Assembly: GCA_946811185.2 (NCBI GenBank)
Contig: OX328112.1
Span: 1,550,001-1,614,000, forward strand
From: Hippopus hippopus
Lineage: Eukaryota; Mollusca; Bivalvia; Cardiida; Cardiidae
Direction: 5' to 3'
Length of the DNA stretch: 64,000 nt
This document shows positions 1 to 42,734 of this stretch, in pieces. The number at the start of each line of letters is the position of its first letter. Position 1 is the stretch's first letter. The translations under genes were made by a program, and so were the position numbers. The notes under the pieces were generated by a model, which saw only the letters and a list, made by a program, of their open reading frames with translations, ran no database searches and was not told the origin of the DNA.

Positions 1-299
1 CTCAGGCTATCGCCCTCGTGGATTATTTATTGTGCCTCATAACTCACAACTGTGGTTTATTGAATGATAAACCACGATAGAAAGAAGATTATTTCTTAAA
101 TTAACAGCCACAAGTTTTTCAAGAAGACAAACTTTTAAGCTTATCAAAATCGACAGCGTTTGCAAACGACCAAGTTCCTTGTGGTTCAAATGATGGTAAT
201 TGCATACATTAAAGCGTGTCATTTGACCTACATAATTAATTGATTGTCTGCATCCACCACCTTCTCTAGGTAAAAGATACATAATAATACTTTCAGGTC

Positions 300-465
300 T
301 GTATAGTTTGTTTGTTTGAACGGTGTTTTACGCCGCTTTCAACATTATTTCAGTCATATCACGGCGATAGCTCGCATATTCATGTTTTCCTGGGTTTCAC
401 TAGTACAAGACCAGGGCTCTGAAGTGTCTTGCCCAAGGGCACACCTGTGAAAGACCCAGGTCTGT
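300..465 (-). repeat. SINE fragment (tail and body)
   Basis: The stretch holds the tail motif TTTCAACATTATTTCAGTCA and the domain TGCCCAAGGGCAC, both shared with the better preserved SINEs at 35868-36052 and 39775-39985. No clear tRNA-like head is left here. The family assignment rests on these shared blocks only. Confidence 0.5.
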
Positions 466-1346
466 ATAGAGAGTGTATGTGCATATATGAACCATGCTCT
501 GGCACATGGGGGCTTAGTGTATCTCCATAATGCATTATACCAAGCAAGTCAAAACAGTATTATGAAAATCGGTTCATTAAAAATAACTGTGAATACAAGT
601 ATATACAGACTTAAAATACTGCTAACCAATTCTGTGATTTCTGCACACAAGAAACTTGATAAAACGCGAATAAAAAGAAAAAATAAGAAATTAAGAATTC
701 CTTATTTGACAGCAAATCTAAATCTCCATTCCCCCCTCAAGCCTTTTAGCACACTATGTGAAAACTGGAGCTTTGGTGGAAGGCATTAATTCAGGATCAG
801 ACTGCACAGAACGTGCAGTATGATCTTGAATCTGTAGCGTTTGCTTGTTCAGCCAAGCCTTTAAATCTTTCTTATTATCAAAGGATTTTTTTCAACCCTC
901 GGAAGAGGTCTTAATATATAATACTCAAAATTTGATAGGGATCACCATTTCAGATTCAACCGATATTTTTAAAAGGGTTGCATGTATCAGGAATGGATTT
1001 TCAATATGTTACATTTCCACACTGATGAAATAAACCACCTGTGTAAATGGATGTCTCTAACGCAAAACTTTATTATTATAACACAGACCCGTATTTAAAT
1101 ATCTTAATGATCCCTATCAAAATGTGAGTAATATATAAATTATGCGCTGAAAGTGTAAAAGCAATTTCGAAAAAAAGGATAGGTTTTATCTCAAACAAAT
1201 ATCAACCTCGGCGTTTGGGTTTCATTTTACCTGCATACAACAAAATACCTGACGAAAACCGCCGAAATAAACCCTGTTTATTCAAATTCACGAATTTACC
1301 TGATGTCATTCTCGTGTTTTAACTATCCATAGGAAAAAGGCCTTTA
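466..1346. other. Intergenic, interspersed repeat pieces only
   Basis: No coding exon is recognisable. Positions 482-600 resemble 34383-34510 and part of 5490-5720 (phrases such as ATGAACCATGCTCTGGC), an interspersed repeat. At 800-838 there is a partial copy of palindrome family B. Short open frames at 487-789 and 845-1033 have no recognisable protein character. Confidence 0.4.
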
Positions 1347-1413
1347 AAACATTGTTAGAAAAGGAGAAAATGCTGGTAACCAGCATTTTCTCCTTTTTTC
1401 ACAATGTTTTCTA
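1347..1413. repeat. Palindrome family A (piggyBac-like MITE core)
   Basis: A near-perfect hairpin: the arm ending GGAGAAAATGCTGG is followed by TAAC and then the reverse complement. The same core recurs at 2391-2452, 17190-17253, 26213-26273, 28291-28364, 32598-32663, 33008-33073 and 57988-58051, with variants at 31070-31120 and 33475-33520. Confidence 0.8.
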
Positions 1414-1562
1414 CCCTTTCTAGAACAAATTACACCATTTGAGCACATTAGTTGGTTGTCTGCATTTCAAAATTTAGGAGTCGACAATTCTGTCATTTGA
1501 TGAAAAGCCAAGTAGTTGTCATCAACGACATCTAAGACCGGGAAACAGTGTGCTTTTGCGGA

Positions 1563-1612
1563 CGATACAGATCAAGATCAGACTGCACAGAGAGTGCAGT
1601 CTGATCTTGGAT
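1563..1612. repeat. Palindrome family B
   Basis: Hairpin made of AGATCAAGATCAGACTGCAC and its reverse complement. Fuller copies lie at 5268-5331, 17812-17873, 35090-35147 and 37606-37668. It has no coding potential and is probably a fold-back MITE core. Confidence 0.75.
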
Positions 1613-2004
1613 GTATACCGTCGGCTTGGTTAGTCAAGCTTATTTAGCATTTTCTTCTTTTCCCCACATGTTTTCAAAAACCGATTAGTCGTTAAGATTC
1701 AGGATTGTGTGGCAAAGGGTAAACTGGTTATAAATTGCCACGTCTGCTTTTCTCTGTGTTAGCCTCGGTTTATTATAAGATCATAAATCAACCAGTGAAA
1801 TCAGCTCCGTATCGGAAGACCGAATTTTTATGACGTTAATATTTTCATACATTTGATTGGCCAATTATCTACATGTAGATCAAAGGGAAAGTGAAACTCA
1901 CGTAGTTTCTTCTTACAACGCGGCTATGACCGTTTTCCGAAAACGTGATGACGTAGACAAATTTTTATGCTCACAAAAATCTACTTTGAAATACTTGTGT
2001 TCGC

Positions 2005-2290
2005 CTGTTTGGTGTTTAACGCCGTTTTGAACACTAATAACTTACATCGCCGCTGTCAGCGTACCTTTTCATGCTTTCCACGATTTTTCTTTCCAGTATT
2101 TTGAACATTATTCTTCCAAAGCCACTTGCTTTACTTTCCTACATAACTATCATCAACAAAAATATCAGCGGTAAGGGAGGAATGAATCCCGGCTGTCGCA
2201 ATGACTAGCCTATCATCAGTCTTCGGATAGAAATCGTCCGACAGTGGTATTCGAACAGGTGACACCCTGATTTAAAGCTTTGTATGTTGC
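2005..2290 (-). repeat. tRNA-derived SINE, degraded
   Basis: Read on the minus strand, a B-box-like GTTCGAATACC lies near 2250 and the tail GTTCAAAACGGCGTTAAACA near 2015-2035. The same tail (GTTGAAAACGGCGTTAAACA) occurs at 18360-18395 and, inverted, at 37108-37130. Confidence 0.5.
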
Positions 2291-2335
2291 GGACTGAGAT
2301 ACAGGACTTGGCCTCTTTGAAATAATAATGGCCTT

Positions 2336-2640
2336 TAACCTTTTACCACACAATCCCGAGTTTTAATGACCCATGTGAAGCCATCTGAAAAATTGTGGGA
2401 AAAGGAGAAAATGCTGGTGACCAGCATTTTCTCCTTTTCCCACAATGTTTTCTTCCCTTTCAAAGACGGATCCAATCATTTGGGCCATGTTTGAATTGTC
2501 GTCTGCAAATACTTTCAATTATGGCCAGTCTATAATTTTGTCGTTTGGTGTTCCACACAAACCAGAGTTTTAGCGTCCATGAAGAAGAATGCTTTTGAAA
2601 ACATTGTTTTCTATCCTTCAAAAGACACATTTCAGTTTTT
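2336..2640. mobile_element. piggyBac-like MITEs, nested
   Basis: The unit starts TTTAACCTTTTACCACACAA, contains a palindrome-A core at 2391-2452 and runs into CTATAATTTTGTCGTTTGGT, the usual far end. A second, partial copy follows at once. The ends are worn; better TTAA-bounded copies lie at 32542-32772 and 57885-58155. Confidence 0.5.
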
Positions 2641-2794
2641 AAGTCACATTGACTTTGTCCACTACAAATGCTTTCATTTTTGACATGTCTAAAATTTTGT
2701 CGTCTCGTAAAGCGTGAAAACAGGTTTTGAATTGCACAACGCCAGGAAAGTTTATTGACGTACAGTGCATCCATGTCCTCGCTGTTTGGATTGC

Positions 2795-3440
2795 TAAGGA
2801 CCATAAAGAAATGTCACTCATGCTGCAAAATTGCCGATGACATTTTTTAAATTGCTTATGACGTAAACTTGTCACTGAAGCTGTAAAATTGACATCGCCG
2901 CTGTCTAAATTGCTTATGACCCTAAAGAAATGTCATTCATGCTGCAAAATTGCCGATGACTATTTTGAAATTGCTTATGACGTAAACTTGTCACTGATGC
3001 TGTAAAATTGCCGATGACGTTTTTGAATTTGCTCTTGACGTAAACTTGTCACTGATGCAAAATTGACTTTGGAGTTTGACAAAATTACTCTAAACAATTG
3101 AAAATGCAAGCGACGCTGTTAGATATTGCCAATGACGTTGTCTAGTTGTCACTTACGCTTTAAAACTATAATTAAATCTGCGAATTTGCTAGTGGTAATG
3201 TCAATATCACAAACGACGCAATGGAAATTACCATTGATGTTGTCATAATTGCTGATGACATTTTAGAATTGTCGCGCACGCAGCAAAAACTAGATTGACA
3301 TTGCCAAACTGTCATTGACAATATAAAATTTCCATTTATCATATAAGTTTATGAATGACACTGTAAGCACTGTATTTTCAATGGCGTTGTGAAAATGGCT
3401 ATTGATGTCTCCAGAAATAGCCAACGGCACTGCATAATTT
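2795..3440. repeat. Diverged tandem repeats
   Basis: Phrases such as ATTGCCGATGAC, GCTTATGACGTAAACTTGTC and CACTGATGCTGTAAAATTG recur in order with a period of roughly 60-125 bp and decay toward 3440. No coding potential is visible. Confidence 0.6.
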
Positions 3441-3515
3441 GTAATGTAATGTCGTGAAATGAAAAAAAAAATAAAAGTTGTTAAAATAAAACAGACTCAA
3501 TAAATGTTGTAATAC

Positions 3516-3665
3516 CTGCCAGGACCTGGAGTCCTGTTGCCGCAAATAGGATCACTTTTTTCTCCTTCGCCACGAAAAGCTTGACCAGGATAGCTGCAAT
3601 CGCTCCAATTACGAGGAATAAAGCCAGAAAAAGCATGGCGCGAACGGCGTCATGGTCCTTACTGT
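3516..3665 (-). CDS. Claudin-like gene, exon 2
   Basis: The acceptor is CCAACCTTTGCAG just above 3665 and the donor GCAG/GTATTA just below 3516. The exon is 150 nt, phase 1 at both ends. It encodes a short acidic loop (DSKDHD), a hydrophobic helix and the start of the next (VILFAATGLQVLAG). Reading through the donor would end the frame at a stop near 3483, so an alternative terminal exon is possible but less likely. Confidence 0.7.
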
Positions 3666-6246
3666 CTGCAAAGGTTGGAGAGAAAGGTGTATGAAACTTT
3701 ACTTATAACTGTTATGACAGATTGAGCAGGGAAACAAGGACAGACGACAGTGACAGAGAAGTGACAGATTGAGCAGAGGAGAGAAGGACAGTGTACAGTG
3801 ACAGAGAAAGCACAGTTTTGGCAGAGGGCAGGGGACAGTGACAGAGAAGTGACAGATTGAGCAGGGGAGATCAGAACAGTGTACAGTGACAGAGAAGTTA
3901 CAGATTTGGCAGGGGGCGGGGACAGTGACACAGAAGTGACAGATTGAGCAGGGGAGACAAGGACAGTGTACAGTGACAGAGAAGTGACAGATTTGGCAGG
4001 GGGCGGGGAAGTGACAGCGAAGTGACAGATTGAGCGGGGGGCGGGGGACAGTGACAGAGAAGTCACAGATTTGGCTGGGGCCGGGGGACGAGGACAGGGA
4101 ACAGTGACAGAGAAATGACGGATTGAGCTGGAGAGACAAGGACAGACGACAGTCGACAGTGACAAACAAGCGACAGATTGAGTAGGGGAGAGAAAGACAC
4201 AGGACAGTGACAAACAAGCGATAGATTGAGTGGGGGAGAGAAAGACACAGGACAGTGACAAACAAGCGACAGATTGAGTAGGGGAGAGAAAGACACAGGA
4301 CTGTGACAAACAAGCGACAGATTGAGTAGGGGAGAGAAAGACACAGGACTGTGACAAACAAGCGACAGATTGAGTAGGGGAGAGAAAGACACAGGACAGT
4401 GACAAACAAGCGACAGATTGACTAGGGGAGAGAAAGACACAGGACAGTGACAAACAAGCAACGGATTGAGCTGCAGAGACAAGAACAGAGGATAGTGACA
4501 AAAAAGTGACAGATTAAGCAGGGGAGACGAGGGCGGAGGACAGTGACAAACAAGTGACAGATTGAGGAGGGCAGAGCAAGACATGGGACTGTGACAAACA
4601 AGCAACAGATTGAGCTGGAGAGACAAAAACAGAGAGCAGTGGCAAACAAGCGACAGATTGGGCAAGGCAGACACGGGCAGAGGACAGTGACAGAGAAGTT
4701 ACAGATATGGCGGGGAAGGACGGGCGACAGTGACAATCAAGCGACAGATTGAGCAGGAGAGACAATGACAGCCGACAGTGACAGACAAGTGACAGATTGA
4801 GCACGAGAGACAAGGACAGTGTACAGTGACAGAGAGGTTACAGATTTGGCAGGGGGGAGGGGGCGAAGACAGGGGACAGTGACAGAGAAATGACGGAATG
4901 AGCAGGAGAGAAGAACGCAAAGTAATGACAAACAAGCGACAGATTAAGTAGGGCAGACAAATACAGACGACAGTGACAGCTGGAGAGACAGGAACAGAGA
5001 GCAGCGGCAAACAAGCGACAGATTGAGCAGGGACGACAAGGACGGAGAACAGCGACAGAGTAGTGACAGATTAAGCAGGGGAGACGGGGACAGAGGGCAG
5101 TGACAGAGTTGGAATGCAGAGGGACTGTGCCAAACGAGAGAAGAACTGGGCAGAGCGGACAAGTGGGCGTACTGAGACAGACAAGAGTTGCAAACAGATA
5201 GACATGGTTCTCAAAAGCATAAGCAAAAAAAAAAGATGGCACCAGAGACATTGGAGAGGCGCTTTGGCGGACAGTGTAGATGAAAGATGAGACTGCACAG
5301 AACGTGCAGTCTCATCTTGGATCTACACTGTCCGATAACAAGATATCTTTCTCTCAAAAATACCTTTGAAATAGCAAAAAAAAAAAATTTTTTTTTTCTT
5401 TTTTTAAATATCGGCTTGAAAGTTTCGTGTCAGTTATTTAGCAGGAGAAGAACTAAAACATTTGAGCAGTGTTCAGTGAAATTTAGATTTAATACAACTC
5501 CGTAATGCAATATACCAAACAAGTAACCATATGAGTATGGATCAATAAAGTCCATTTTGTCTAACAACCAACTGAATCATTAGCTAGACCGGTCCCTTGA
5601 CATGAAGAAAATTTACCAATAGCACACGCGGATTGCGCAGGCTGACCTACGTCAATACTTTTTGCAGATGTATTTTAACGCCCTTTTCACAAAGCATGAT
5701 CCATTCTACAGAGGGGCGGACTTTACTGTGATAAGTCATATTTCAAATAGTCATAAGTTGCGATAAATCATGTTTAGTTAACTGTGATTTTGTCAATTAT
5801 GAGGCATATCCTCCTATGTCACACTTTTTTTTAAAATTTATTATTATTTCAAGGACCACAATGGAAATAAGGCATTTATAATCCCTTTTTTGTGTCATCC
5901 TTTGTATTTAAATATATATAGTTTGTCATAATTTCATTATCATGTCTATGTAATCTCATGTATAGTGCTATTATGATGTCATATATTTTATACAGAAATA
6001 AATCTATGTATCTGACGGACGGACAGACACACAGACTCAGAATCAAACTAAGATTTTACCTTCAATATCGACACAAGCTTTCGCAGAAGTTTGTTTTATC
6101 TCTTGGCAAGATTCCCATAGTCCAGAATAAAAACTACCAAGATCCGAGTCGTAAAAGACCCAGTAGTCGATTGCTAAAGAAATAATGATGCACACCATGT
6201 CAAACACCAGCAGACCGACGGTAATAAAAGCCAACAAGTTTTCCAT
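3516..6246 (-). CDS. Claudin/PMP22-like tetraspan protein (partial gene)
   Basis: Two exons on the minus strand join in phase 1 to encode the first part of a four-transmembrane protein of the PMP22/EMP/claudin fold, a plasma-membrane or cell-junction family. Exon 1 (6246 to 6060) opens with ATG in a good context, gives a hydrophobic first helix and then the extracellular signature DYW...GLWESC...AKAC, that is the W-GLW-C-C pattern of the family. Exon 2 (3665 to 3516) holds another membrane helix (MLFLALFLVIGAIAAILVKL) and ends at a GT donor, also in phase 1. I could not find the remaining exon(s) for the last helices in 1-3500, so they probably lie beyond the left edge. The intron between exons is filled by a 48-bp minisatellite and a palindrome. 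The exact claudin subfamily is not determined. Confidence 0.75.
3700..5130. repeat. Minisatellite, about 48-bp unit
   Basis: Tandem units combine GACAGTGACA, AAGCGACAGATTGAG and GGGGAGAGAAAGACACAG. Five to six consecutive units near 4180-4440 have an exact 48-bp period; flanking units vary in length and sequence. The array lies in the intron of the claudin-like gene. Several long minus-strand frames across it (Ser/Leu/Val/Cys repeats in all three frames) are by-products of the repeat and not genes. Confidence 0.9.
5268..5331. repeat. Palindrome family B, good copy
   Basis: CGGACAGTGTAGATGAAAGA is followed by ACTGCACAGAACGTGCAGT and the matching right arm ending in TCTACACTGTCCG. It sits directly beyond the minisatellite. 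Confidence 0.85.
5490..5725. repeat. Interspersed repeat shared with 34383-34700
   Basis: The order of short blocks (ATACCAAACAAGTAACCATA; GGCTGACCTACGTCAATAC; CAGATG(T/C)ATT; CTTTTCACAAA) matches the copy at 34383-34700 in intron 5 of STEEP1. It is non-coding. Confidence 0.45.
6060..6246 (-). CDS. Claudin-like gene, exon 1
   Basis: The first in-frame ATG is at 6246-6244, with an in-frame stop a short way upstream. The exon is 187 nt and ends at a GAAG/GTAAAA donor in phase 1. It carries the first membrane helix (LLAFITVGLLVFDMVCIIIS) and the W-GLW-C-C signature. Joining to exon 2 creates an Asp codon across the junction and keeps the frame open. Confidence 0.8.
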
Positions 6247-7023
6247 GTCTTCGCTGCAGCAGTTACACACCTAGTATCTAGCATTAAATCAAGAGGCACT
6301 GTTTATGCAAATTCAAATGTGACACGTATGGTCTGCAGGCGCGTAGCCAGGCGGAAGCCTGGAAGCCCGGGCTTCAACATAATTTTTTCAAGTATGGTCT
6401 TTCTGAGAAAAAATTAAGAAAGAAAAACAAAGAAAATAAAAATGAAAAAGAAAGAAAACAAAGCAAAAATAAAAACTAACAAAGAAAACTGAAGAAATAA
6501 AATTTAACTTGGATCTGATTTGTATATTTTTTTCTCGCGGCCTTTTGATTCCACCGTAGATAGTATTTTTCACCTCGTGGAATCGCTTCCAGTTACCAAT
6601 TCCACAAACCGGAGACTTTCGAGATATAAACAAAGATTTTCTCTGCGCTTTTTCTGTGATAGAACAACTAAGTAAGCACTTTTTGGCGTTTCCTTATCTT
6701 CATTAAATTATTTTGTACTACGCAGCCAAAGCAGCAACCCTGGAAATGGAAGGTTCCTAGTTAACTAGCATGACGTTTATCGGTGTCACATTGACAAGTT
6801 TACGCGGCAATCATTAAGCATCATATTTTTCATATATATATGGCACTGTTATTCGATGCAGAACTTTCTAATTAGTCCAAGTAATGAAGTATAACCAAAT
6901 CAGAGAGAGAGAGAAAAAGAAAAAAAATAAATAAATAGAAAAGTGCATTTCATAATAACAATACGCTCGGATTTTAAAAGTATGGAAGTACAGTGATGCC
7001 AAGGAGAAATATTACTTGGACAT

Positions 7024-7029
7024 ATTAAC
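7024..7029. repeat. 6-bp target site duplication (left)
   Basis: ATTAAC directly precedes the element's AG terminus. The identical ATTAAC follows its CT terminus at 16041-16046. Six-base duplications are the hallmark of Polinton/Maverick insertion. Confidence 0.85.
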
Positions 7030-7042
7030 AGTAGTATAGGGG

Positions 7043-7083
7043 AGTCACTTGGGGCAGTTTTGGCGATTTTGCCCCAAGTGACT
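7043..7083. repeat. Subterminal hairpin, left end
   Basis: AGTCACTTGGGGCA (7043-7056) and TGCCCCAAGTGACT (7070-7083) form a perfect 14-bp stem with a 13-nt loop, starting 13 bp from the end of the element. An identical structure is at 15987-16027. It may bind a terminal or replication protein. Confidence 0.85.
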
Positions 7084-7139
7084 ACCCCTGAGTGCCCCAT
7101 TCTGCTATCCTGACAGTAAAATGGGGCAGTGGATAGCAG

Positions 7140-7590
7140 AATGGGGCACTTTTGGAAATAAACCGGAAGTAGATAACGCCAAAAGTCCGCCATTTTGAAA
7201 TACCAATTCTGACGGATAAGCAGAATGGGGCACTGGGATAGCAAATGGGGTACTTTTGGAGACAAACCGGAAGTAGATAACGCCAAAAGTCCGCCATTTT
7301 GAAATACCAATTCTGACGGATAAGCAGATGGGGCACTGTGACAGTAAATGGGTCATCAGGATAGCAAATGGGGCACTTTTGGAGACAAACCGGAAGTAGA
7401 TATCTCCAAAAAGTCCGCCATTTTGAAATACCAATTCTGACGGATAAGCAGATGGGACACTGTGACAGTAAATGGGGCATCAGGATAGCAAATGGAGCAC
7501 TTTTGGAGACAAAGCGGAAGTAGATATCGCCAAAAGTCCGCCATTTTGAAATACCAATTCTGACGGATAAGCAGATGGGGCACTCTGTAC
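7140..7590. promoter_or_regulatory. Tandem ETS + YY1-like blocks in left arm
   Basis: Four units about 104-124 bp apart each contain an ETS-type ACCGGAAGT (7162, 7265, 7389; AGCGGAAGT near 7512) followed about 20 bp later by CCGCCATTTTG, the reverse of the YY1-type CAAAATGGCGG. Units are separated by GGGGCACT/TGCCCCAT phrases. Both motifs are typical of strong housekeeping core promoters. No gene product is expected here; the open frames on the minus strand are by-products. Confidence 0.6.
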
Positions 7591-7727
7591 ATGTTGCAGA
7601 GATTGGCCAGTCCCTATCTGACTTACCCTGACTGCCCCATTCTGCTTACCCTGAGTGGGGGGGGCTGTACTGACTGAAAGTCTTGAAAAATGACAATTTG
7701 AAAGATCACTCTGTCGTGTGGAATGGT

Positions 7728-7743
7728 AGCCCTGAAAAGGGCT
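7728..7743 (-). terminator. Histone-type 3' stem-loop, gene A
   Basis: In gene sense: AGCCCTTTTCAGGGCT (6-bp stem, TTTC loop), 20 nt after the stop, preceded by CACAAAC and followed by ACCATTCC and then ACGACAGAGTGATC. The animal replication-dependent histone hairpin has a 6-bp stem with a 4-nt U-rich loop, ACC(C)A after it and a purine-rich U7 site. Confidence 0.75.
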
Positions 7744-7763
7744 GTTTGTGGAGGTTGTGTTTT

Positions 7764-8060
7764 TTAGGCACAACCTCCAACTTTTCTGCAGGCTGGACAG
7801 CTGCTTGCTGTCCGCCTCCTTAGCCTCTTTATCTGTTGCTCGTCCAGGTTAAACTGGAGAGAGAACGCCGGCTCATCGTCGTCATCCCAGCGTTCTGTCA
7901 CTGGGATGACAAACTCCTTCTCTTCTTTGATAGCTGGTGATGGTAGTCTTTTATCCTCACCCATTATCTTCCCTATTTGTCCGTTTACTCTCTCTAATTT
8001 CAATGAGAGGGTGGATACCGCTCTCATTAAATTGCGAACTGACTTCCGAAGATCTTCCAT
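7764..8060 (-). CDS. Small coiled-coil/zinc-tail protein A
   Basis: A 98-residue protein of unknown function, lying wholly inside the left inverted arm. Residues 1-35 (MEDLRKSVRNLMRA...) look like a heptad coiled coil; a linker with basic and Pro/Ser residues follows, then an acidic patch WDDDDEP, a basic helix LDEQQIKRLRRR and a C-terminal SCPACRKVGGCA, a possible C-x2-C-x5-C metal site. It is the inverted-arm duplicate of gene G (104 residues). The first and last thirds are nearly identical between the two while the linker differs by substitutions and a small indel, which suggests the protein is under constraint. The ATG lies about 31 nt after a TATAAAA on the minus strand, so the leader is very short. 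The 3' end is histone-like. It could be a DNA-binding or scaffold protein; this is inference only. Confidence 0.75.
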   Translation of the reverse strand: MEDLRKSVRNLMRAVSTLSLKLERVNGQIGKIMGEDKRLPSPAIKEEKEFVIPVTERWDDDDEPAFSLQFNLDEQQIKRLRRRTASSCPACRKVGGCA

Positions 8061-8090
8061 CGTTCAATTGAATAGTGAAAAATCGTCGGC

Positions 8091-8219
8091 TTTTATAAGC
8101 TGGTGGGAGGATTGACCTACTTTGGTTCAGAATTAACGTTGACCAATCAAAATGTATAATGATATAACGAACGAATCGATTGGATACCGTTAATTCTATG
8201 TCAAAGTAGGTCAATCCTC
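8091..8219. promoter_or_regulatory. Promoter module M1 (gene A)
   Basis: An inverted-repeat module. GGATTGACCTACTTTG at 8108-8123 plus AGAATTAACG is mirrored by CGTTAATTCT and CAAAGTAGGTCAATCC ending at 8218. Between them lie CCAATC and GATTGG, i.e. two facing CCAAT boxes, around a core ATGATATAACGAACGA. A TATA box (TTTTATA on the plus strand, 8091-8097) faces gene A. The same module stands before genes B/PolB, E/F and G. Confidence 0.75.
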
Positions 8220-8231
8220 TCGTCAGAACTA

Positions 8232-8806
8232 GGATTGACCTACTTTGATTCAGAATTAAGAGCGCGTTCCCGGGCGAAAGCACCCTCGATGAAGAGGGGG
8301 TTTAAACGCTATGTGTTATTAAGTGTAACTCATAGAGGTAGAAATGCCAAAATTTGAAAAGAATAATCTTTCAGAATTAACGTTTTTTGACCAATCAGAA
8401 GCTTCGTTGGTTTAATGTTGGCCAATCAGAAGCTTCGTTATATTTCTTTGTGTGCGTAAAAACTAGAAGGAAAAGATTCGTGTTATGCACAGGAGTTTGG
8501 ACTTAGTCTTTTTTTTGATATGGAATACAGTGTGATTTTAATACCCACTTTGTCTCTGGTCAAGAGGGTTGGGAATAGACTTTTTTTGTCTGGTTAGAGT
8601 AAAAAAATTTACAGTGGGATTGTGGACTTAGGCTTTTTTTGAGTATAACTCTTAGAGTGTAACTCTTAGAGTGTAACTCATTGACTGAAAGTCTTAGAGT
8701 GTATCTCTTTTAGAGGAACTTGACAATTTGAAAAGAAAGATCTTTTCGTGGTGTTGGGTTAGCCCTGAAAAGGGCTGTTTTTCTGTGTTGGAATGTTTTC
8801 CAGCTT
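8232..8806. other. Non-coding internal spacer of the PolB element
   Basis: Starts with a half promoter module (GGATTGACCTACTTTGA at 8232-8248, then AGAATTAAGAGCGCG) identical in layout to the sequence just before PolB, but with no gene after it. Then come duplicated blocks (CCAATCAGAAGCTTCGTT twice, 8390-8440) and direct repeats of TCTTAGAGTGTAACTC (8646-8700). Positions 8590-8780 are an inverted copy of about 14801-14970, the 3' flank of gene F. I see no coding gene. Confidence 0.5.
8761..8776 (-). terminator. Histone-type 3' stem-loop, gene B
   Basis: In gene sense AGCCCTTTTCAGGGCT, 30 nt after the stop, preceded by AAAAAC and followed by AACCCAACACCACGAAAAGA and then TCTTTC. The purine element GAAAAGA begins about 13 nt after the stem. 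Confidence 0.75.
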
Positions 8807-9106
8807 TTAATGACAACATCCAAAATTTGCATGGCAGATTGGACATGCTCCGACTCTTTTCGTGATTGTCGTTGCTCCATTATTAAAAGTAATCCGTCTC
8901 CTGAATTCCACATCAACCAAGATAACGTCAGGTGCTGTCTCTAGAACTAGTTCGACTATTTTCTCACCAAGATCTACGTATGTGCGTGATATTTGTTCTA
9001 GTTGTATTCTATTCTCTTCAATCCTGTTCTTTAGTATCAGTACTTGATCACCACCAATCAGAAAGACTCGGAGAGCCTCAATAAGTCGATGATTCATTTG
9101 GTCCAT
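8807..9106 (-). CDS. Small coiled-coil/zinc-tail protein B
   Basis: A 99-residue protein of unknown function. An N-terminal helical region with heptad-like spacing (about residues 15-60, including LILKNRIEENRIQLEQI) is followed by a beta-rich stretch and a C-terminal ACPICHANFGCCH. The tail has the same C-x2-C-x5-C pattern as genes A and G, although the rest of the sequence is unlike them, so it may be a distant paralogue. It is divergent to PolB: its minus-strand TATAAAA (plus 9182-9188) and the half promoter module at 9199-9240 sit between the two start codons. Its 3' end is histone-like. Whether it binds zinc or DNA is inferred from the tail only. Confidence 0.7.
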   Translation of the reverse strand: MDQMNHRLIEALRVFLIGGDQVLILKNRIEENRIQLEQISRTYVDLGEKIVELVLETAPDVILVDVEFRRRITFNNGATTITKRVGACPICHANFGCCH

Positions 9107-9181
9107 TTTTTCGTTAACACTTAACCGTGCTATTCGAGAGCTGACTGTCGAATGATTTATTATTTGGAAAAATTCGACGAC

Positions 9182-9240
9182 TTTTATACGTTTGCAGTGG
9201 GATTGACCTACTTTGACTTAGAATTAAGAGCGCGACCTCG
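9182..9240. promoter_or_regulatory. Divergent promoter between gene B and PolB
   Basis: GGGATTGACCTACTTTGACT (from 9199) leads into AGAATTAAGAGCGCG, ending six bases before the PolB ATG. On the minus side a TATA box (9182-9188) faces gene B. Unlike modules M1, M4 and M5 there is only one half of the inverted repeat and no TATA toward PolB, so the polymerase probably has a different, perhaps weaker, start. Confidence 0.6.
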
Positions 9241-9246
9241 AAAAAA

Positions 9247-12200
9247 ATGATTGAGGACCGAAAAGAAGAAAGTAACAACACTACTTTAGACATGAAAAGT
9301 CTGTATGACTTAACGGAGAAGGGAAAAAAGAAATCGAGGAAATTTAGAACAGAATCACATCTGTTGATGGCGTCTTTTAAGAAATTTGAACAATTACCAC
9401 CCCATCAACTGATCGGATTATTTGATGAAGTTACCCATCAAATCATTCAAAAGTTAAATGCTGAACCGACGGATATGATTAGAATTAGTATCAACCCTCC
9501 TTCATTGAAAATAGGGATTCATATTCCCTTTCTACCTACAGAACAGCTGAAAGGCGAAACTATGTTAAATGAGATTGAACGAGTTTTACAATCGAATACA
9601 GATTTCGTCTTGAACGATGGATTCATGACATTTGACATTACACATACAATACCTCCAAGTGGTAACGGGAGAAAAAGATCATCAGAATTGGATTCAAAGG
9701 TTTTTTCCCGGAAGAAAAAATCAATTATTCAAATTAACAATCATGATCACCTATGTTTTGCAAGAGCAGGTGTGGTGGGCATTTGCTACAGTGAACGTGA
9801 AAACACCAAAGCATGGTATAGAAGATGGTCATGCATCAGAAAATCAGATAGAATACTTCAAAAGACTGAAGCTGAGAAACTGTTGAATGAAGCTGGAGTT
9901 TCGCCAACCCGGTCTGTAGGAAATGACGAATACAAAAAAATCCAATCTTTCTTGTATGAAAAGGGGTATGTCATTAAAGTTCATCAACAGCATTCAAAAG
10001 TGGAAAAAGTATTTGAACACCCAGAAGTGAAAGACGATAGTAAAATCATACATTTGTACTTTCATCAAAACCACTATGATTACATCAAATCCATTGCAGG
10101 TTTTCTTAGTTGTTCAATTTATTGTGAGTTCTGTGATGTGGGATACTCGTCACGGGAAAGTCATGCATGTTCAAATATCTGTAAAGGTTGTTTTCGCAAA
10201 GGAAAATGTGCATCAGAATCAAAAGAATATGTTTGCAGTGGGTGTCATAGACGATTTTTCAGTGCTTTATGTTTGGCAAATCATAGAATTGTTCAAGGTA
10301 AAGAAAAGAAATCCATTTGTGAATTAGTAAAACTCTGTTTAAAATGTGGTCAACAATATTATCTCAGAAAGAAAAATCATATCTGCCATGGAAAGAAAAA
10401 GTGTCATATCTGCAAGAAAATTGTTGACTTTTCTCATCGATGTTATATTCAGCCTTACCAAAGTAAGACAAACACCGATGACAAGACGAGTTCTTCTGTA
10501 GTCAAAAAACCATTGTTCATTTTCTTTGATTTTGAATGCAAACAAGACACAGGGATACATATCCCGAATTACTGTATCGCGCACAAAGCATGTGATGAAT
10601 GTATTGATAAACCACTTGATTTTCATTGTTCCACATGCAGTGAATTTGAAGAAGGAAGAGAAGTTATTTTTCAAGGTGAGGAAACTTTGAGTCAATTTTG
10701 CAACTGGCTCTTTTCGGAACATCATAAAGGAGTCACGGCTATTGCGCATAATTTCAAAGGCTATGACGGACAGTTTATTCTTGACTATGTTACCAAAGTT
10801 GGGCTAAAACTTCCAAATTTGATCATGAATGGCAATAACATTATGAAGTTAGAACTGAATGGAGTGCGTTTGATCGATTCTTTTAATTTTATGAACTTTG
10901 GTTTGGCAAAATTTCCAGCTACATTTGGTCTTCAAGAAATGAAAAAAGGTTACTTCCCTCACTGGGCAAATACAGATGAATTCTGGGGTTACACTGGTCC
11001 CTACTTGGACATGTCTTATTACAAGCCCGATTCAATGTCTGAAGAGGCCAGGTCAAATTTCATAGTCTGGTATAATGATAAAGTTCAAAGGGATGAGGAA
11101 TTCAATTTTCAAAAAGAGATGGAAATGTACTGTAGATCAGATGTTGATATCCTAAGACGAGGTTGTTGTGAATTCAGAAAGGTGTTTATTGAACAGGGTG
11201 GTATTTGCCCATTTCTAGAGGCGGTTACCATTGCCGATGCGTGTAACAAGGTTTGGCGAAGCAAATATTTGCCTGAAAATCAAATAGCTATCATTTCAAG
11301 TAAAGATTCATCCAGACGTCGCTTTTCCATGAAAGCAGTACGCTGGATCCAGAGCATAGCTATGGAAAAAGGAATCAATATTCGCCATGCAAAAAATGGT
11401 GGTGAAGTTCAAATCGAGAGATACAGAGTAGACGGATTTCACCGTCAATCAAACACTGTCTACGAATTCCTTGGGGATTTGTTTCATGGCTGTCCCGTAT
11501 GTTATACAGATCGAAAACAGATCAATCCCATCAATGGAAGATCGATTTCTGAATTGTACGAACGTACTTTTGAACGTTTAGGAGCTATCCGAAAAATGGG
11601 ATATAACGTAGAGTTCATATGGGAACATGAATTCGATGCTAAGATGAAGAAGGATAAAGAGTACAAAAAACTCATTGAAAACCAGTATCCAAATTGGGAT
11701 CCCATCGATCCAAGGGAGGGATTGTCTGGAGGAAGGTGTAATGCAATAAAAATTGCCTATGATGTCAAGGAAAAAAGTAAAAAGGAAATCAAATACATTG
11801 ATATTTGTTCTCTGTACCCTTATGTTTGCAAACACAAATCTTATCCTGTAGGTCAACCAAAAATCTTTACTGCTGAGAATATTGACGTGAAGAATATTCG
11901 TCAGTATGAAGGAATAATTAAATGCAAAGTTTTACCTCCAGATGATTTGTTTCATCCTGTTCTCCCAGTTCACTGTAACAACAAAATGATGTTTCCACTC
12001 TGTATGAAATGCGCAGAAGAAAATTCGAACATTTGTAGACATAACAAAGAAGAGAGGGCTTTGGTAGGAACTTGGGTTACTTTTGAACTGTTCAAAGCTC
12101 TTGACTGTGGTTATCGGCTATTGCAAGTGTATGAAATTTGGCAATTCGATTTTGTGTCGGATCAGTTCTTTAAAGGCTATGTGGATAATTTCTTGAAAAT

Positions 12201-13071
12201 TAAGCAAGAAGCTAGCGGATATCCCAGTTGGTGTCAATCAGATTCAGAAAAAGAACAGTTTATTCGTGAATATGAGGAGGCAGAAGGTATTCGTCTTGAT
12301 CCAAGTTGTATTCAAAAAAATCCTGGGAGAAGATCCTTTGCTAAGATTATGTTGAACTGTCTTTGGGGAAAATTAGCCCAGCGTGAAAAAATGACCCAGA
12401 CGGAATACATCAACGATCCGTCTAAATATTTTGAATTGGTCACCAATCCAAATTTCATTGTGAAGCATGTAGAAATCTTTGACGATGACTGTCCATTCAT
12501 CTTGGTCAACTACGAATCAAAGTTGGAACATATTGATACTCACGCTACAGCCATTGTTATTGTAGGAGCCTACGTAACAGCTTATGCAAGGCTGGAATTG
12601 TACAGCGTTCTTGAAAAGTTAAAGGATAGAGTTCTGTATTTTGATACAGATAGTTGTATGTACATTCATGATCCTGAATTATAGAACCCTCCCATTATTA
12701 ACAGCAGACTAGGAAAATGGACTGATGAAGAGACTGATTGTAAAATCACTCATTTCAGAGGACTAGGACCAAAGAATTATGTTTACAAAATGAAAACAAA
12801 AGATGGAAAAGTGAAAAGCAAATGTAAAGTGAAGGGGATTACTTTGGATTACAATACAAGTCAGGTGGTGAATTTCGATACATATTCAAAATGTGCTTTG
12901 AGTCGCACTACAGAAATCAAAATTGAATATGATTGTAGAATCAAAAGACATAGAGATAGAACGGTCACCAGTGAACCGCAAACAAAAACGTTTCGTTCTG
13001 TATACACCAAGAGAGTTATTGTAAATGATACTGACACTGTACCCTATGGCTATAAAACGTTGAGAAGATAA
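9247..13071 (+). CDS. polB: Protein-primed family-B DNA polymerase (in-frame stop)
   Basis: DNA polymerase type B of the protein-primed Polinton/adintovirus/bidnavirus group, which copies linear DNA from a protein primer. N-terminal residues 1-140 carry the family's leader (…RIERVLQS-like helix, IPPSGNGRKR). Residues about 294-402 hold Cys/His clusters. 3'-5' exonuclease: Exo I FDFE (D428, E430), Exo II NFKGYD (N502, D507), Exo III Y628-x3-D632. A nuclease-like insert, D729...YEFLGD...HGCPVC (739-752), is common in metazoan relatives. Polymerase: motif A D852-ICSLYP, motif B K1033-x3-N-CLWG, motif C YFDTDS (D1133, D1135). A TAG at 12682-12684, 10 codons after motif C, stops the frame at 1145 residues; the same frame then continues for 128 codons with the KxY motif (KNY, 12772-12780) to a TAA at 13069. 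No frameshift is seen. The copy is either newly broken or read through. Confidence 0.9.
12682..12684 (+). other. In-frame TAG inside PolB
   Basis: It splits the palm/thumb region: all catalytic Asp residues lie before it, and the thumb and KxY motif after it. The following frame stays open to 13071 without other damage. The flanking codons still read like the family (DPEL/NPPIINSRLGKW), so a single point change is the simplest account. Confidence 0.85.
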
Positions 13072-13137
13072 TTCCATGTTACATTGTTTTGAAGAGAACG
13101 GTCCGAGTAAGACGTAAAATAATATCACTGAAAAATT

Positions 13138-13791
13138 ATGCTGCCTTTACCAATAGAACTACGTGAAAAGATTTATGGAGAATTCGTTCAACAGCATACG
13201 CTCGATGAACAAACGCAACTTTACATTAAATTCGGCTGTGTGAAACTTTGGATAGATAAATTGCACAAAGGTTTTGCAAAAGGAGATTCGTCCTGCAAGT
13301 TGTATGCTATACACAACTTTATTGCTATGATGGTAGACGATTCGGATTTAGATCTCGTTCTCAAAGCTTATTTAGCATCTTGTTGGTGGAAAGACGGTGC
13401 TATCGGTAAACAAATCCGATCCACAAGTTGCTGGTGCTTTATTATCATAGGAAGAACAGAAGAAAGCTTTCTAAACGTTCTGAAAATGAAATCAGTTTTA
13501 TTTAACTTTTACTTACGCTACAAAAGAGGATTTATTCAAAACGATGAGGAAAAAGTGGATACCTTGGAAGGCTATATTTTATTTGATAGAGATGTTACAG
13601 AAGAAAGTGTATATTCATCCCTTTCAACAAAAGGCGTTACAAAACATGTTTTTCCATTTAGAGGAATACGTGAATTCAGAGATATGGACAGTGAATATCA
13701 ATTGTATTTGGGTAATGAGCAATTGCATACAGTTATTATGGAACATGAAGACAAATGGAAAACTCGGGGCATTTGTGAATTTGCATTGTGA
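13138..13791 (+). CDS. 217-residue protein of unknown function
   Basis: Starts 66 bp after the polymerase frame, on the same strand, and shares a downstream AATAAA with it, so it may be co-transcribed. The first residues (LPLPIELREKIYGEFV) resemble the opening of an F-box, but no more of one is evident. Residues about 98-190 have the order CWCFIIIG, a helix, YKRGF...TLEGYILFDR, a helix, KHVFPFRGIREFRD and YQLYL. This loosely follows the beta-alpha-beta layout of a CRESS/HUH rolling-circle endonuclease domain (TLEGY where those have HLQGY), but the metal-binding histidines are missing. I do not claim activity. It has no histone-type 3' end. It could equally be the terminal protein or an accessory replication factor. 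The duplicated GAATTTGCATTGT around the stop is a small tandem repeat. Confidence 0.6.
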   Translation: MLPLPIELREKIYGEFVQQHTLDEQTQLYIKFGCVKLWIDKLHKGFAKGDSSCKLYAIHNFIAMMVDDSDLDLVLKAYLASCWWKDGAIGKQIRSTSCWCFIIIGRTEESFLNVLKMKSVLFNFYLRYKRGFIQNDEEKVDTLEGYILFDRDVTEESVYSSLSTKGVTKHVFPFRGIREFRDMDSEYQLYLGNEQLHTVIMEHEDKWKTRGICEFAL

Positions 13792-13970
13792 ATTTGCATT
13801 GTAAGATGTTATATTGCATGAAATATTATATTGTACGAAATGTTTTTATGCTAAATTGTTTTTTGCACAGATATTGTTTTTTCATTTTCAATGTTTTTTA
13901 ACAGATATTGTTTTTTCATTCCATTGTTTTTTTCACAGTTCATGTCTTGTTTCATTGTACAAAATGATTG

Positions 13971-13976
13971 AATAAA
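13971..13976 (+). promoter_or_regulatory. Poly(A) signal for PolB/217-residue unit
   Basis: AATAAA occurs 180 nt after the stop, after a T-rich tract with repeats of ATTGTTTTTT (13850-13935). It is the only gene unit in the element with this signal close behind it and no histone-type hairpin in sense orientation. Confidence 0.5.
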
Positions 13977-14078
13977 AAACATATGAAATAATTCTGGGCT
14001 TGACTTTTTTTCTTCTGACTGTAAGTCTTTAGAATGTAAGTCTTTTGAGAGAAAAAATTGACAATTCGAAAGAAAAGC

Positions 14079-14087
14079 TCTTTCTTG
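14079..14087 (-). promoter_or_regulatory. Histone downstream element, gene E
   Basis: In gene sense CAAGAAAGA, the textbook core of the U7 snRNA binding site, 9 nt after the end of the stem-loop at 14097-14112. The spacing and sequence agree with metazoan histone pre-mRNA processing signals. Confidence 0.75.
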
Positions 14088-14096
14088 GGGAATGGT

Positions 14097-14112
14097 AGCC
14101 CTGAAAAGGGCT
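14097..14112 (-). terminator. Histone-type 3' stem-loop, gene E
   Basis: In gene sense AGCCCTTTTCAGGGCT, 30 nt after the stop, preceded by AAAAAAC and followed by ACCATTCCCCAAGAAAGAGC. It is the best match in the window to the full histone 3' signal: hairpin, ACCA, then HDE. Confidence 0.85.
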
Positions 14113-14142
14113 GTTTTTTCTCCATTCACTGGATGGTTAAAA

Positions 14143-14349
14143 TTAATTCCATACCAGTGACATGAAGTCGGGCGAAAACTCAAGCCCTTGCCTCTTTAAA
14201 AACTCGCAGAGAGTTTTCATCTTCGCTGCCTCTTCTCTTCTTGCTTCTTTTTCTCTTTTCTCCCGATCTAGCTTCTCCTCCATCTCTCTCTTCATCATTT
14301 CGCCCTTTCTCCTTCCAAAACACTTGCTAAATGTTTTATTGTCTTTCAT
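14143..14349 (-). CDS. Small charged coiled-coil protein E
   Basis: A 68-residue protein of unknown function. About residues 14-45 are a run of alternating Lys/Arg and Glu (MKREMEEKLDREKREKEARR), predicted as a single charged alpha helix or coiled coil, followed by CEFLKRQGLEFSPDFMSLVW. It has no metal-binding tail. The ATG lies about 39 nt after a minus-strand TATAAAA (plus 14388-14394) and it is transcribed divergently from gene F through module M4. The 3' end carries the best histone-type signal. Size, lack of introns and flanking signals, not homology, support it as a gene. Confidence 0.65.
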   Translation of the reverse strand: MKDNKTFSKCFGRRKGEMMKREMEEKLDREKREKEARREEAAKMKTLCEFLKRQGLEFSPDFMSLVWN

Positions 14350-14387
14350 TGTGAAATGAAAAATAATCCGATCATAAAAAAAGTTCG

Positions 14388-14533
14388 TTTTTATACGTTG
14401 ACGGGAGGATTGACCTACTTTGACTCAGAATTAACGTTATCCAATCAAAATGTGTAATGATATAACGAACGATTCGATTGGGCGACGTTAATTCTATGTC
14501 GAAGTAGGTCAATCCACCCTGCAAGCTATAAAA
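14388..14533. promoter_or_regulatory. Bidirectional promoter module M4 (genes E and F)
   Basis: A complete inverted-repeat module: GGATTGACCTACTTTGACTC at 14407-14426 mirrored by GTAGGTCAATCC ending at 14515, with facing CCAATC and GATTGG boxes inside. TATA boxes flank it on both sides: TTTTATA (14389-14395, toward E) and TATAAAA (14527-14533, toward F). This is the clearest example of a two-way promoter in the element. Confidence 0.8.
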
Positions 14534-14571
14534 TTCCAATGTTTTATACATCAAATCATTATCGTTCCATC

Positions 14572-14778
14572 ATGGTACAGATACTTCTCTGTCCGATGTG
14601 CGGTAGCAGATGCTATATAGAATGCGGAAAATGTCTTGCTATTCTGGACTACCTTGGACAGAAGCATAACTGTCCTGATCCTGATGAGGGATTTTATGAC
14701 GATGGTGAAAGCTCGGCAGTATGCTGTGAATACTGTGGATGTGAAATCATCCCAGTAAATCGTTTAGAAGAGCAGTAG
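14572..14778 (+). CDS. Small Cys-rich protein F (zinc-ribbon-like)
   Basis: Starting at the ATG at 14572 (45 nt after the TATA box), the product is 68 residues; an upstream in-frame ATG at 14539 lies only 6 bp past the TATA box and is unlikely to be used. It holds CPMCGSRCYIECGKC near the start and CCEYCGCEI near the end, separated by an acidic stretch (PDPDEGFYDDGE). The paired CxxC units suggest a zinc ribbon or double zinc knuckle, but no known family is recognised. It is divergent to gene E. The 3' end is histone-like and its flank is copied, inverted, downstream of gene B. Confidence 0.7.
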   Translation: MVQILLCPMCGSRCYIECGKCLAILDYLGQKHNCPDPDEGFYDDGESSAVCCEYCGCEIIPVNRLEEQ

Positions 14779-14804
14779 TCTTTATAGATGAATACTCGAA
14801 AAAC

Positions 14805-14820
14805 AGCCCTTTTCAGGGCT
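14805..14820 (+). terminator. Histone-type 3' stem-loop, gene F
   Basis: AGCCCTTTTCAGGGCT, 26 nt after the stop, preceded by AAAAAC and followed by AACCAACACCACGAAAAGAT. Same layout as gene B. Confidence 0.75.
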
Positions 14821-14968
14821 AACCAACACCACGAAAAGATCTTTCTTTTCAAATTTGTCAATTTTCAGTCAAAAGACTTTCAGTCAAAGAGTTACACTCT
14901 AAGAGTTATACTCCAAAAAAGCCTAAGCCCACAGTCCCACTGCAAATTTTTACTCTAACCAGACAAAA

Positions 14969-15093
14969 ATTGACCTACTTTGACATAGAAATAACGGTGT
15001 CCAATCGATTCGTTCGTTATATCATTACACATTTTGATTGGTCACCGTTAATTCTGAACCAAAGTAGGTCAATCCTCCCATCAGCTTATAAAA
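14969..15093. promoter_or_regulatory. Promoter module M5 (gene G)
   Basis: Same inverted-repeat plan as M1: ATTGACCTACTTTGACATAG at the left, AAAGTAGGTCAATCC at 15061-15075, facing CCAATC/GATTGG boxes and TATAAAA at 15087-15093, 32 nt before the ATG of gene G. It is the inverted-arm counterpart of M1. Confidence 0.75.
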
Positions 15094-15124
15094 GCCGACG
15101 ATTTTTTCACTATTCAATTGAACG

Positions 15125-15439
15125 ATGGAAGATCTTCGGAAGTCAGTTCGCAATTTAATGAGAGCGGCAGAGTCCCTCTCATTAAAACTAGAGAGGGTTA
15201 ACGACCAACTCGAAAAGCTGATGACAGAAAAGAAAGAAAGCCTACCATCACCACCAATGTCGGCACCACCATCCAACAAAGAGAAGGAGATTGTCATCCC
15301 AGTGACGGAATGCTGGGATGACGACGATGAGCCGGCGTTCACGCTAAACTTTGATCTGGACGAGCAACAGATAAAGAGGCTAAGGAGGCGGACAGCAAGC
15401 AGCTGTCCAGCCTGCAGAAAAGTTGGAGGTTGTGCCTAA
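15125..15439 (+). CDS. Small coiled-coil/zinc-tail protein G
   Basis: A 104-residue homologue of gene A in the opposite inverted arm. Residues 1-14 and the last 30 (…LDEQQIKRLRRR to SCPACRKVGGCA) are identical or nearly so, while the linker has a 6-residue insertion rich in Pro/Ser and several conservative changes. The function is unknown; the layout is coiled coil, linker, acidic WDDDDEP, basic helix and Cys tail. Intact frames in both arms, despite nucleotide divergence of the arms, argue for selection on the protein or for recent replacement between copies. Promoter module M5 precedes it and a histone-type hairpin follows. Confidence 0.75.
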   Translation: MEDLRKSVRNLMRAAESLSLKLERVNDQLEKLMTEKKESLPSPPMSAPPSNKEKEIVIPVTECWDDDDEPAFTLNFDLDEQQIKRLRRRTASSCPACRKVGGCA

Positions 15440-15458
15440 AAACACAATCTCCACAAAC

Positions 15459-15474
15459 AGCCCTTTTCAGGGCT
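15459..15474 (+). terminator. Histone-type 3' stem-loop, gene G
   Basis: AGCCCTTTTCAGGGCT, 19 nt after the stop, preceded by CACAAAC and followed by ACCATTCCAAACGAAAGAGT. GAAAGAG lies about 12 nt after the stem, at the position expected of a histone downstream element. Confidence 0.8.
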
Positions 15475-15639
15475 ACCATTCCAAACGAAAGAGTGATCTT
15501 TCAAATTGTCAATTTTCAAGACTTTCAGTCAGTACAGCCCCCACTCAGGGTAAGCAGAATAGGGCACTCAGGGTAAGTCAGATAGGGACTGGCCAATCTC
15601 TGCAATATGTACAGTCTAAGATCAACCGGAAATGGTCTT

Positions 15640-15910
15640 TGTCCCTGTAACCATGACGTCACATGACTTTTCCTAAGCCACACCCATCTTTCCCCCTCTC
15701 AGGGTAAGGAGAGTAGGTACCGGAAGGTCACGTCAGCCGGAAGTGACGTCACGTGCCCTATTCTGCTACCCCCCCCCGCTACCCCATTTACTGTCAGGGT
15801 AGCAGAATGGGCCACTCAGGGGTAGTCACTTGGGGCAACCGGAAGTGACGTCATAGTGCCAAAGTCACGTGTCAAAATGGCGGACTTTTGGCGTTATCTA
15901 CTTCCGGTTT
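15640..15910. promoter_or_regulatory. ETS/CRE composite sites in right arm
   Basis: CATGACGTCACATG at 15652-15665, GCCGGAAGTGACGTCACGTG at 15736-15755, and ACCGGAAGTGACGTCA at 15838-15853: composite ETS + CRE sites, one with an adjoining E-box CACGTG. A YY1-like CAAAATGGCGG lies at 15873-15883 and an inverted ETS site at 15900-15908. Their binding is inferred from motif match only. Confidence 0.55.
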
Positions 15911-15986
15911 ATTTCCAAAAGTGCCCCATTCTGCTATCCACTGCCCCATTTTACTGTCAGGATAGCAGAATGGGGCACTCAGGGGT

Positions 15987-16027
15987 AGTCACTTGGGGCA
16001 AAATCGCCAAAACTGCCCCAAGTGACT
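15987..16027. repeat. Subterminal hairpin, right end
   Basis: AGTCACTTGGGGCA and TGCCCCAAGTGACT again form a perfect stem around a 13-nt loop, mirroring 7043-7083. Confidence 0.85.
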
Positions 16028-16203
16028 CCCCTATACTACTATTAACGTTAGTGCTGTAGGCCCATTACTTTTAGATCGATTTTCGACGCGCATTTCAATC
16101 AAGTTTTTGCAAATGGTTTTGATGTTTTTATTTGATTTCCATTAAAATGAATATTTTACGTACAAAACACGTGAAAATACAACATTTATCAACGTGAAAA
16201 ACT

Positions 16204-42005: not shown

Positions 42006-42734
42006 CTAGGCCCATATGGAATTGTTTGTCTTTTTCTTCGTTGGCCAGAAATCCACCACCTTTGCACAATGGGCTTCATCAAAACTAAGATCTCTTTCTG
42101 GCTTATTCTTTGCAAAATTATTGTGAAGCACAGACAAAAACAGTCTTACCCTGAACAGCTTGTCAACCCTTTGATCTGCATCATTGGCAACAAGATGCAA
42201 GTTTGAAAGAATTAGAAAGAATCTGCCTTTTGACATATAATTTCCAAAAAATTGGGTTTATGAAACTTCATTAGTACTTCAATAATCCTCTAAATTAGTT
42301 TTTCGAACTGTTCCCATGGCTATAACTAGCGCAATTAACTCCTTCATTTCGTCCATGGTTGTTTCAGTCCATTTTTGTAGATGGCTGTTATGCTTCAACC
42401 TGCCTTCATGAGTTTGGTCCTGCGCATATTTGTTTGTCATGTCACGAAGTAAAACCCACATGTTTTCGTCATAGAAGTAATTAAAAACCACAAGAGGACT
42501 TAAATCGTCTTTAGGTAAGGCTTCAATAAGTCCAGAGTCCTCAACAAACGGCATCAGTAGAGGTGGTGAGTCCATGTTGACCCACCCATTTTCTTTGTCA
42601 ACATCCATCTCGCAGTCTCTTTCAGATTGTCTCATCTCAAACTTGTTGACAGCGATGGCATCTATCAAAATTTCTTCAAGAATAATTTCTTCTTCACTTT
42701 TGAAAACATTAGGGAAAAAAATCTCTGTTAACAT
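42006..42734 (-). pseudogene. piggyBac transposase fragment (N-terminal half)
   Basis: Two stretches in the same frame separated by two stops: from LTEIFFPNVFKSEEE through SPLVVFNYFYDENMWVLL, TTMDEMKELIALVIAMGTV and NLEDY, then MSKGRFFLILSNLHLVAN, RLFLSVLHNNF and DLSFDEA. This is the N-terminal part and the first catalytic Asp region of a DDE_Tnp_1_7 (piggyBac) transposase. The rest is lost. It may be a relative of the source that moved the TTAA-bounded MITEs here. Confidence 0.75.

Follow-up and report, generated by a model that had tools for sequence, protein, structure and literature searches.

Histone-type stem-loops behind five small genes of a DNA polymerase B element in Hippopus hippopus, and their probable part in mRNA 3' processing

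Can the 3' end of a histone mRNA be used by genes that are not histones? Histone-type 3' ends are commonly considered exclusive to histone genes. The question is raised by a mobile element of ~9.0 kb, bounded by two TTAA tetramers, in the bivalve Hippopus hippopus (GenBank assembly GCA_946811185.2, contig OX328112.1, positions 1,550,001 to 1,614,000). This whole stretch of 64,000 nt is referred to as the window, and all coordinates are counted from its first letter. The element encodes a DNA polymerase B (PolB; the Pol unit) and five small genes, which are termed by the length of their products in amino acids (aa): the 98-, 99- and 104-aa genes, the charged 68-aa gene and the cysteine-rich 68-aa gene (Table 1). 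Passages of PMC9756948, PMC5011920 and PMC6210712 describe replication-dependent histone mRNAs as bound by SLBP on a stem-loop and cut slightly downstream in a step that U7 assists; these mRNAs lack poly(A) and are tied to S phase.

Five identical hairpins and their shared context

The 16-mer AGCCCTTTTCAGGGCT occurs in five exact copies in the 64-kb window, one downstream of each small gene and always in the sense direction, as a sequence-only reading of this DNA had claimed. The same reading placed the hairpins 18-51 nt behind the stop codons, which the ends of the open reading frames (ORFs) correct to 19-30 nt (20, 30, 30, 26 and 19 nt in window order). Each copy folds into a 6-bp stem with a U-rich loop of 4 nt and is set in conserved flanks: AAAC precedes it in 5/5, and ACCA (three copies) or AACC (two) follows, also as previously read. 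A purine tract comes 12-13 nt further downstream, so that stem, loop, both flanks and tract are arranged as in the histone mRNA 3' end, with its stem-loop (described by RF00032, the Rfam histone stem-loop model) and its purine-rich downstream element. When up to three mismatches are allowed, AGCCCTTTTCAGGGCT matches six times in the window against 0.41 expected, and none of 100 shuffles reaches six. A relaxed count of histone hairpins likewise gives five in the window, compared to a mean of 0.3 and a maximum of 2 in 40 first-order Markov windows.

Covariance search with RF00032 yielded a full-length match for every copy, with E values from 1.5e-5 to 1.7e-3 that refer to a scan against 4227 families. 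RF00032 is absent from the 14 Rfam matches that 16200-64000 gives at E 10 or below, and the stretch 1-6899 was covered at the gathering threshold. Other Rfam families in the window scans, chiefly microRNAs (miRNAs), were taken as chance matches or as palindromes of the element. The Pol unit, as the sequence-only reading had it, lacks any copy of the hairpin and carries AATAAA at 13971. The hairpin signal is real and specific to the small-gene unit, and it is also found in one distant relative, which is described below.

The five genes share their upstream sequence as well. The module GGTCAATCC-N11-TATAAAA has exactly five sites in the 64 kb, one upstream of each small gene, and the Pol unit has neither this promoter module nor the hairpin. 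With the same module at the 5' side and the same hairpin at the 3' side, the five genes have both their start and their end modules in common. The charged and the cysteine-rich 68-aa genes start from opposite sides of one 115-nt palindrome. Including this one, palindromes of ~110-120 nt with CCAAT/ATTGG motifs lie at small-gene starts at 8100-8218, 14404-14518 and 14969-15079. Short genes of a single ORF with a TATA box and no nearby AATAAA are likewise typical of replication-dependent histone genes; here AATAAA is absent within 420 nt downstream of any small-gene stop. ATTAAA lies 264 and 390 nt behind the stop of the 99-aa gene and 402 nt behind that of the cysteine-rich 68-aa gene, and is absent within 420 nt for the other three.

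Taken together, function in histone-type mRNA 3' processing is the best explanation of these hairpins, to which we give a probability of about 0.7. Under this explanation the host SLBP would bind the hairpin and the histone cleavage complex would cut the small-gene mRNAs 3' of it, leaving them without a poly(A) tail; applied to these hairpins, the histone mRNA pathway leads one to expect that the small proteins are translated from short tail-less mRNAs. Such mRNAs would be produced and translated chiefly during S phase, and expression of the Pol unit, which has an ordinary poly(A) signal, would be separate. In this way small accessory proteins might be supplied by the element at the time when DNA can be copied. 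If this is true, five small genes of mostly unrelated sequence in a mobile element use histone-type ends, which would mean that genomic parasites have access to the pathway and that coupling to S phase may serve Polinton-like elements as a strategy. More such cases could then be located by a simple sequence scan, and the hairpins would offer a natural non-histone substrate for determining what SLBP and U7 require. Among the matches listed in searches of the open-licence literature, none describes a histone stem-loop signal in a mobile element or an animal virus.

Duplication within the element and hairpins in its relatives

The five 3' regions are related by internal duplication. The hairpins at 7728 and 15459 lie inside matching inverted arms (7660-7764 and 15438-15542, 96%), and those at 8761 and 14805 lie next to two inverted arms of 33 nt that are identical, so that the five amount to about three distinct cases rather than five independent events. 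In an alignment of the five 3' regions 16/16 hairpin columns are invariant, compared to 39/139 elsewhere when columns with gaps are taken as variable (one-sided Fisher 1e-8, a guide only, because alignment columns are not independent). The identity of the hairpin despite its diverged flanks suggests selection rather than plain copying.

The search for relatives of the polymerase gave 13 related contigs from genome assemblies, all filed as bacterial, which we read as mis-binned eukaryotic DNA; several of them are short and hold little besides Pol. One of them (L008) has an RF00032 match of 35.8 bits (E 1.8e-6), over the gathering score of 34 bits, and its Pol matches that of the element at 37% in the best segment. 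The L008 hairpin, GGCCCTTATCAGGGCC, has AAAC in front of it and ACC with a purine tract behind it, and starts 28 nt behind the stop of an 89-aa ORF of the C2H2 zinc-finger type. Compared to the hairpin of the window, the first pair is G-C instead of A-U and the loop is UAUC instead of UUUC. The bases listed in passages of PMC6827988 as conserved for binding by SLBP comprise the closing U-A pair, the first and third U of the loop and further ones in the stem; the closing pair and both loop U are retained in the window and L008 hairpins alike. L008 also encodes a PolB split over three ORFs, a chromodomain integrase and a TBP-like protein, and this combination marks it as Polinton-like. The TBP-like protein (L008:7189-7695, minus strand; PF00352, E 1.2e-27) is matched in two stretches and sits beside the integrase. 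A hairpin-pattern match in another contig (L005) was rejected, as it is without histone-type flanks.

Closer relatives are represented by proteins, ten related to the product of the 104-aa gene and three to that of the 99-aa gene. In three of these 13 (52, 56 and 59% identity in the alignments), the divergent C-terminal end reaches residues that are compatible with translation through the hairpin, namely ALFRAT (P0128), SPFQGYQ (P0130) and KQPFSGLP (P0133), where three-frame translation of AAACAGCCCTTTTCAGGGCTACCA gives KQPFSGLP, NSPFQGY and TALFRAT. P0133 continues beyond the usual end, and P0128 and P0130 shift out of the usual frame earlier. The other ten relatives end earlier and are uninformative on the hairpin. 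Judged by translation, the hairpin is probably present in three close relatives. A further match of the read-through motif (P0083) lies inside a polymerase and was set aside.

These data bear on the most credible of the alternatives, in which the hairpin is a relic, captured with a host histone 3' end, duplicated within the element and no longer working in processing. Copies that lie in or beside internal inverted repeats would be expected from such a history, and the early end of the Pol ORF indicates that this copy of the element may be decaying. We nevertheless consider a relic unlikely, as the hairpin is invariant where its flanks have diverged, three related proteins of 52-59% identity have compatible residues and the hairpin is present in the distant contig L008.

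Searches of IMG/VR did not extend this set. Neither the Pol ORF nor the L008 integrase had a match there, the Pol alignment gave one weak match (L001), and three hairpin patterns, the last two of them degenerate, gave 0, 2 and 1 matches with no further element among them. All three hairpin matches were dismissed as chance: L015 lies inside a longer inverted repeat and antisense to the nearest listed ORF (~170 nt of upstream sequence considered), L016 lies inside a listed ORF and L017 in an open frame in the 279 nt inspected.

The purine element and the weight of contrary evidence

The purine element behind the hairpin is CAAGAAAGA for the charged 68-aa gene, GAAAGAG for the 104-aa gene and GAAAAGA for both the 99-aa and the cysteine-rich 68-aa genes. 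These are as the sequence-only reading had listed them, to which the variant GACAGAG behind the 98-aa gene has to be added. The same reading likened the element to a U7 site. It does stand at the expected place, yet RNA folding predicts that in 4/5 copies it is paired in cis with the next pyrimidine tract over 6-7 pairs, forming a second hairpin 3' of the first. The whole region of 67 nt with both hairpins has folding z values of -2.0 to -5.2 across the five copies. This predicted pairing may hide the purine element from U7, replace U7 or be opened during processing, so that use of U7 is uncertain. A U7-like Sm site 3' of the purine element was also considered, as AAATTTGTC in one copy resembled the Sm site of U7, and was rejected as no better than chance: the 5' part of human U7 scores 12.0 at the AAATTTGTC copy and 7.0-9.5 at the remaining copies, less than the 12.5 that it reaches at an unrelated site elsewhere in the window. 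The Rfam family of U7 is not among the matches in Rfam scans of the element region.

The second hairpin is also what an element-borne signal might look like, that is, a terminator, replication or packaging signal in DNA or RNA that has converged on the histone hairpin. The element is rich in palindromes and subterminal repeats, and a precedent exists in a plant viroid, the loop of which equals that of the histone hairpin in sequence; passages of PMC6827988 assign it a role in replication and trafficking, outside histone processing, and report no SLBP homologue found in the host. This alternative ranks below the relic and is improbable, since the hairpin is tied to gene 3' ends and to the sense strand in 5/5 copies and the flanks fit RF00032 as well. 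A bolder variant of the histone-type explanation holds that a virus-like PolB lineage in animals moved an entire gene set into the histone mRNA pathway and thereby obtained tail-less mRNAs locked to S phase, with the cis-paired purine element in place of the U7 duplex and cutting that depends on SLBP and is independent of U7; it would be a long shot. The weakest proposal, that the transcripts are polyadenylated in the ordinary way further downstream and the hairpin modulates stability or gives an optional second end as in some histone genes, can draw on ATTAAA 264-402 nt behind two of the five genes and on a histone pre-mRNA for which passages of PMC9756948 describe ends of both types, and is very improbable given the lack of AATAAA within 420 nt for all five genes and of ATTAAA for three.

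Several observations weigh against histone-type processing. All five window copies (24.9-30.4 bits) remain under the 34-bit gathering score of RF00032, and their first stem pair is A-U, compared to G-C in the consensus. Two miRNA families score E 5e-4 and 9e-4 in 16200-64000, so lone matches of ~1e-3 are not rare; a lone match of that order means little, and the weight lies in five matches of one family, each 3' of a gene. The predicted cis pairing of the purine element, described above, is a further departure from the histone mRNA 3' end, as is the nature of the genes, which are not histones. Among the 13 assembly contigs RF00032 reaches the gathering score in one only; the 12 others and the IMG/VR contig L001 are negative, and six of the 12 are negative at a lax threshold also. 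L008 itself has no terminal repeats, and its zinc-finger ORF could sit in flanking host DNA. The read-through motifs were picked after the proteins had been viewed and bear on the protein level only, where, owing to codon degeneracy, the exact bases are not fixed. The interpretation given by the sequence-only reading stands in part. Its histone stem-loop assignment fared well in the covariance test that it had proposed, in that RF00032 finds 5/5 copies, although under the gathering score; L008 exceeds that score and three proteins are compatible. Its U7 part finds no clear support, given the predicted cis pairing.

Architecture of the element and comparison with known systems

The element ends in inverted arms of 174 nt (7025-7198 and 15872-16045) that are 99% complementary. 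An imperfect palindrome of 49 nt with a hairpin-like shape lies near each terminus (7039-7087 and 15983-16031), and tandem repeats of 104-124 bp, made of terminal-repeat sequence, occupy 7120-7587 at the left end.

Table 1. Features of the element, in window coordinates
Feature	Coordinates	Strand	Basis or remark
Whole element	7029..16041		TTAA flanks 7025-7028 and 16042-16045; termini YAGTAGTATAGGGGAG; inverted arms, side-by-side end comparison
Histone-type stem-loop of 98-aa gene	7728..7743	-	RF00032 28.3 bits
Small gene, 98 aa	7764..8060	-	Paralogue of 15125-15439; CPxC motif at C-terminus
Histone-type stem-loop of 99-aa gene	8761..8776	-	RF00032 24.9 bits
Small gene, 99 aa	8807..9106	-	Predicted long helix, two strands and CPxC tail; mean pLDDT 71.5
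DNA polymerase B ORF (DNA_pol_B_2)	9247..12684	+	Pfam E 5.6e-46; early stop compared to relatives
217-aa ORF	13138..13791	+	No Pfam match up to E 1
AATAAA poly(A) signal	13971..13976	+	Downstream of Pol unit
Histone-type stem-loop of charged 68-aa gene	14097..14112	-	RF00032 24.9 bits
Small gene, 68 aa, charged	14143..14349	-	No Pfam match above cut-off
Palindromic stretch with both promoter boxes	14404..14518		Between two divergent small genes
Small gene, 68 aa, cysteine-rich	14572..14778	+	FYDLN_acid E 0.0031, under that family's cut-off
Histone-type stem-loop of cysteine-rich 68-aa gene	14805..14820	+	RF00032 26.9 bits
Predicted second hairpin, purine element paired with following pyrimidine tract	14833..14850	+	RNA folding
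Small gene, 104 aa	15125..15439	+	Predicted helices; mean pLDDT 70.6
Histone-type stem-loop of 104-aa gene	15459..15474	+	RF00032 30.4 bits

Full-length similarity among the five small proteins is confined to one pair, the 98- and 104-aa products. The 99-aa product shares with each of these two a tail of 13 residues that contains the CPxC motif (E 0.07-0.08). The possibility that the small proteins are histone-like was rejected: none of the five has a Pfam match to a histone family, and the two predicted structures (99 and 104 aa) consist of a long helix with two strands and of helices, respectively.

A search with the polymerase yields 1236 relatives at E 1e-3 or better, the best of which represents 342 sequences, so that related elements can be numerous. 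Among the 120 relatives listed, those with names come mostly from marine invertebrates, among them oysters, a mussel, a sea cucumber and sea urchins; the exceptions are a beetle and bacterial records of metagenome-assembled genomes. A marine invertebrate host would be expected from this distribution. Residues 731-814 of the Pol ORF match a phage family of unknown function, phrog_22677 (E 3.8e-5), and an EF-G...H motif in this stretch is conserved across the relatives.

Compared to known systems, the element resembles Polintons (Mavericks) in its PolB of the DNA_pol_B_2 type and its inverted terminal repeats, and L008, which encodes integrase and PolB, belongs here too. Passages of PMC4028283 give an RVE integrase, protease, ATPase and capsid genes and a size of 15-20 kb as features of Polintons; the present element differs in its 9 kb, its TTAA flanks and the lack of a Pfam match to integrase, protease, ATPase or capsid in the eight ORFs scanned. 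With the bidnaviruses, for which passages of PMC4061559 list a superfamily 3 helicase and a parvovirus-type capsid, it shares the plan of a compact PolB element with inverted termini. It is distinct from them in the absence of a helicase or capsid match from the same eight ORFs, its chromosome-like contig and its TTAA ends. TTAA is the preferred target of piggyBac-like DNA transposons, which the element resembles in having TTAA at both ends and from which it differs in that no transposase match is found in the eight ORFs. Outside the element, a transposase fragment of the family DDE_Tnp_1_7, presumably of piggyBac type, lies at 42279-42740 on the minus strand (E 1.4e-10) and is a possible source of TTAA mobilisation. 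The window also holds a mariner-type transposase in two ORFs at 46916-48046 on the plus strand (HTH_48, Transposase_1 and DDE_3) and a reverse transcriptase fragment at 50266-50856 on the minus strand (RVT_1, E 1.7e-19).

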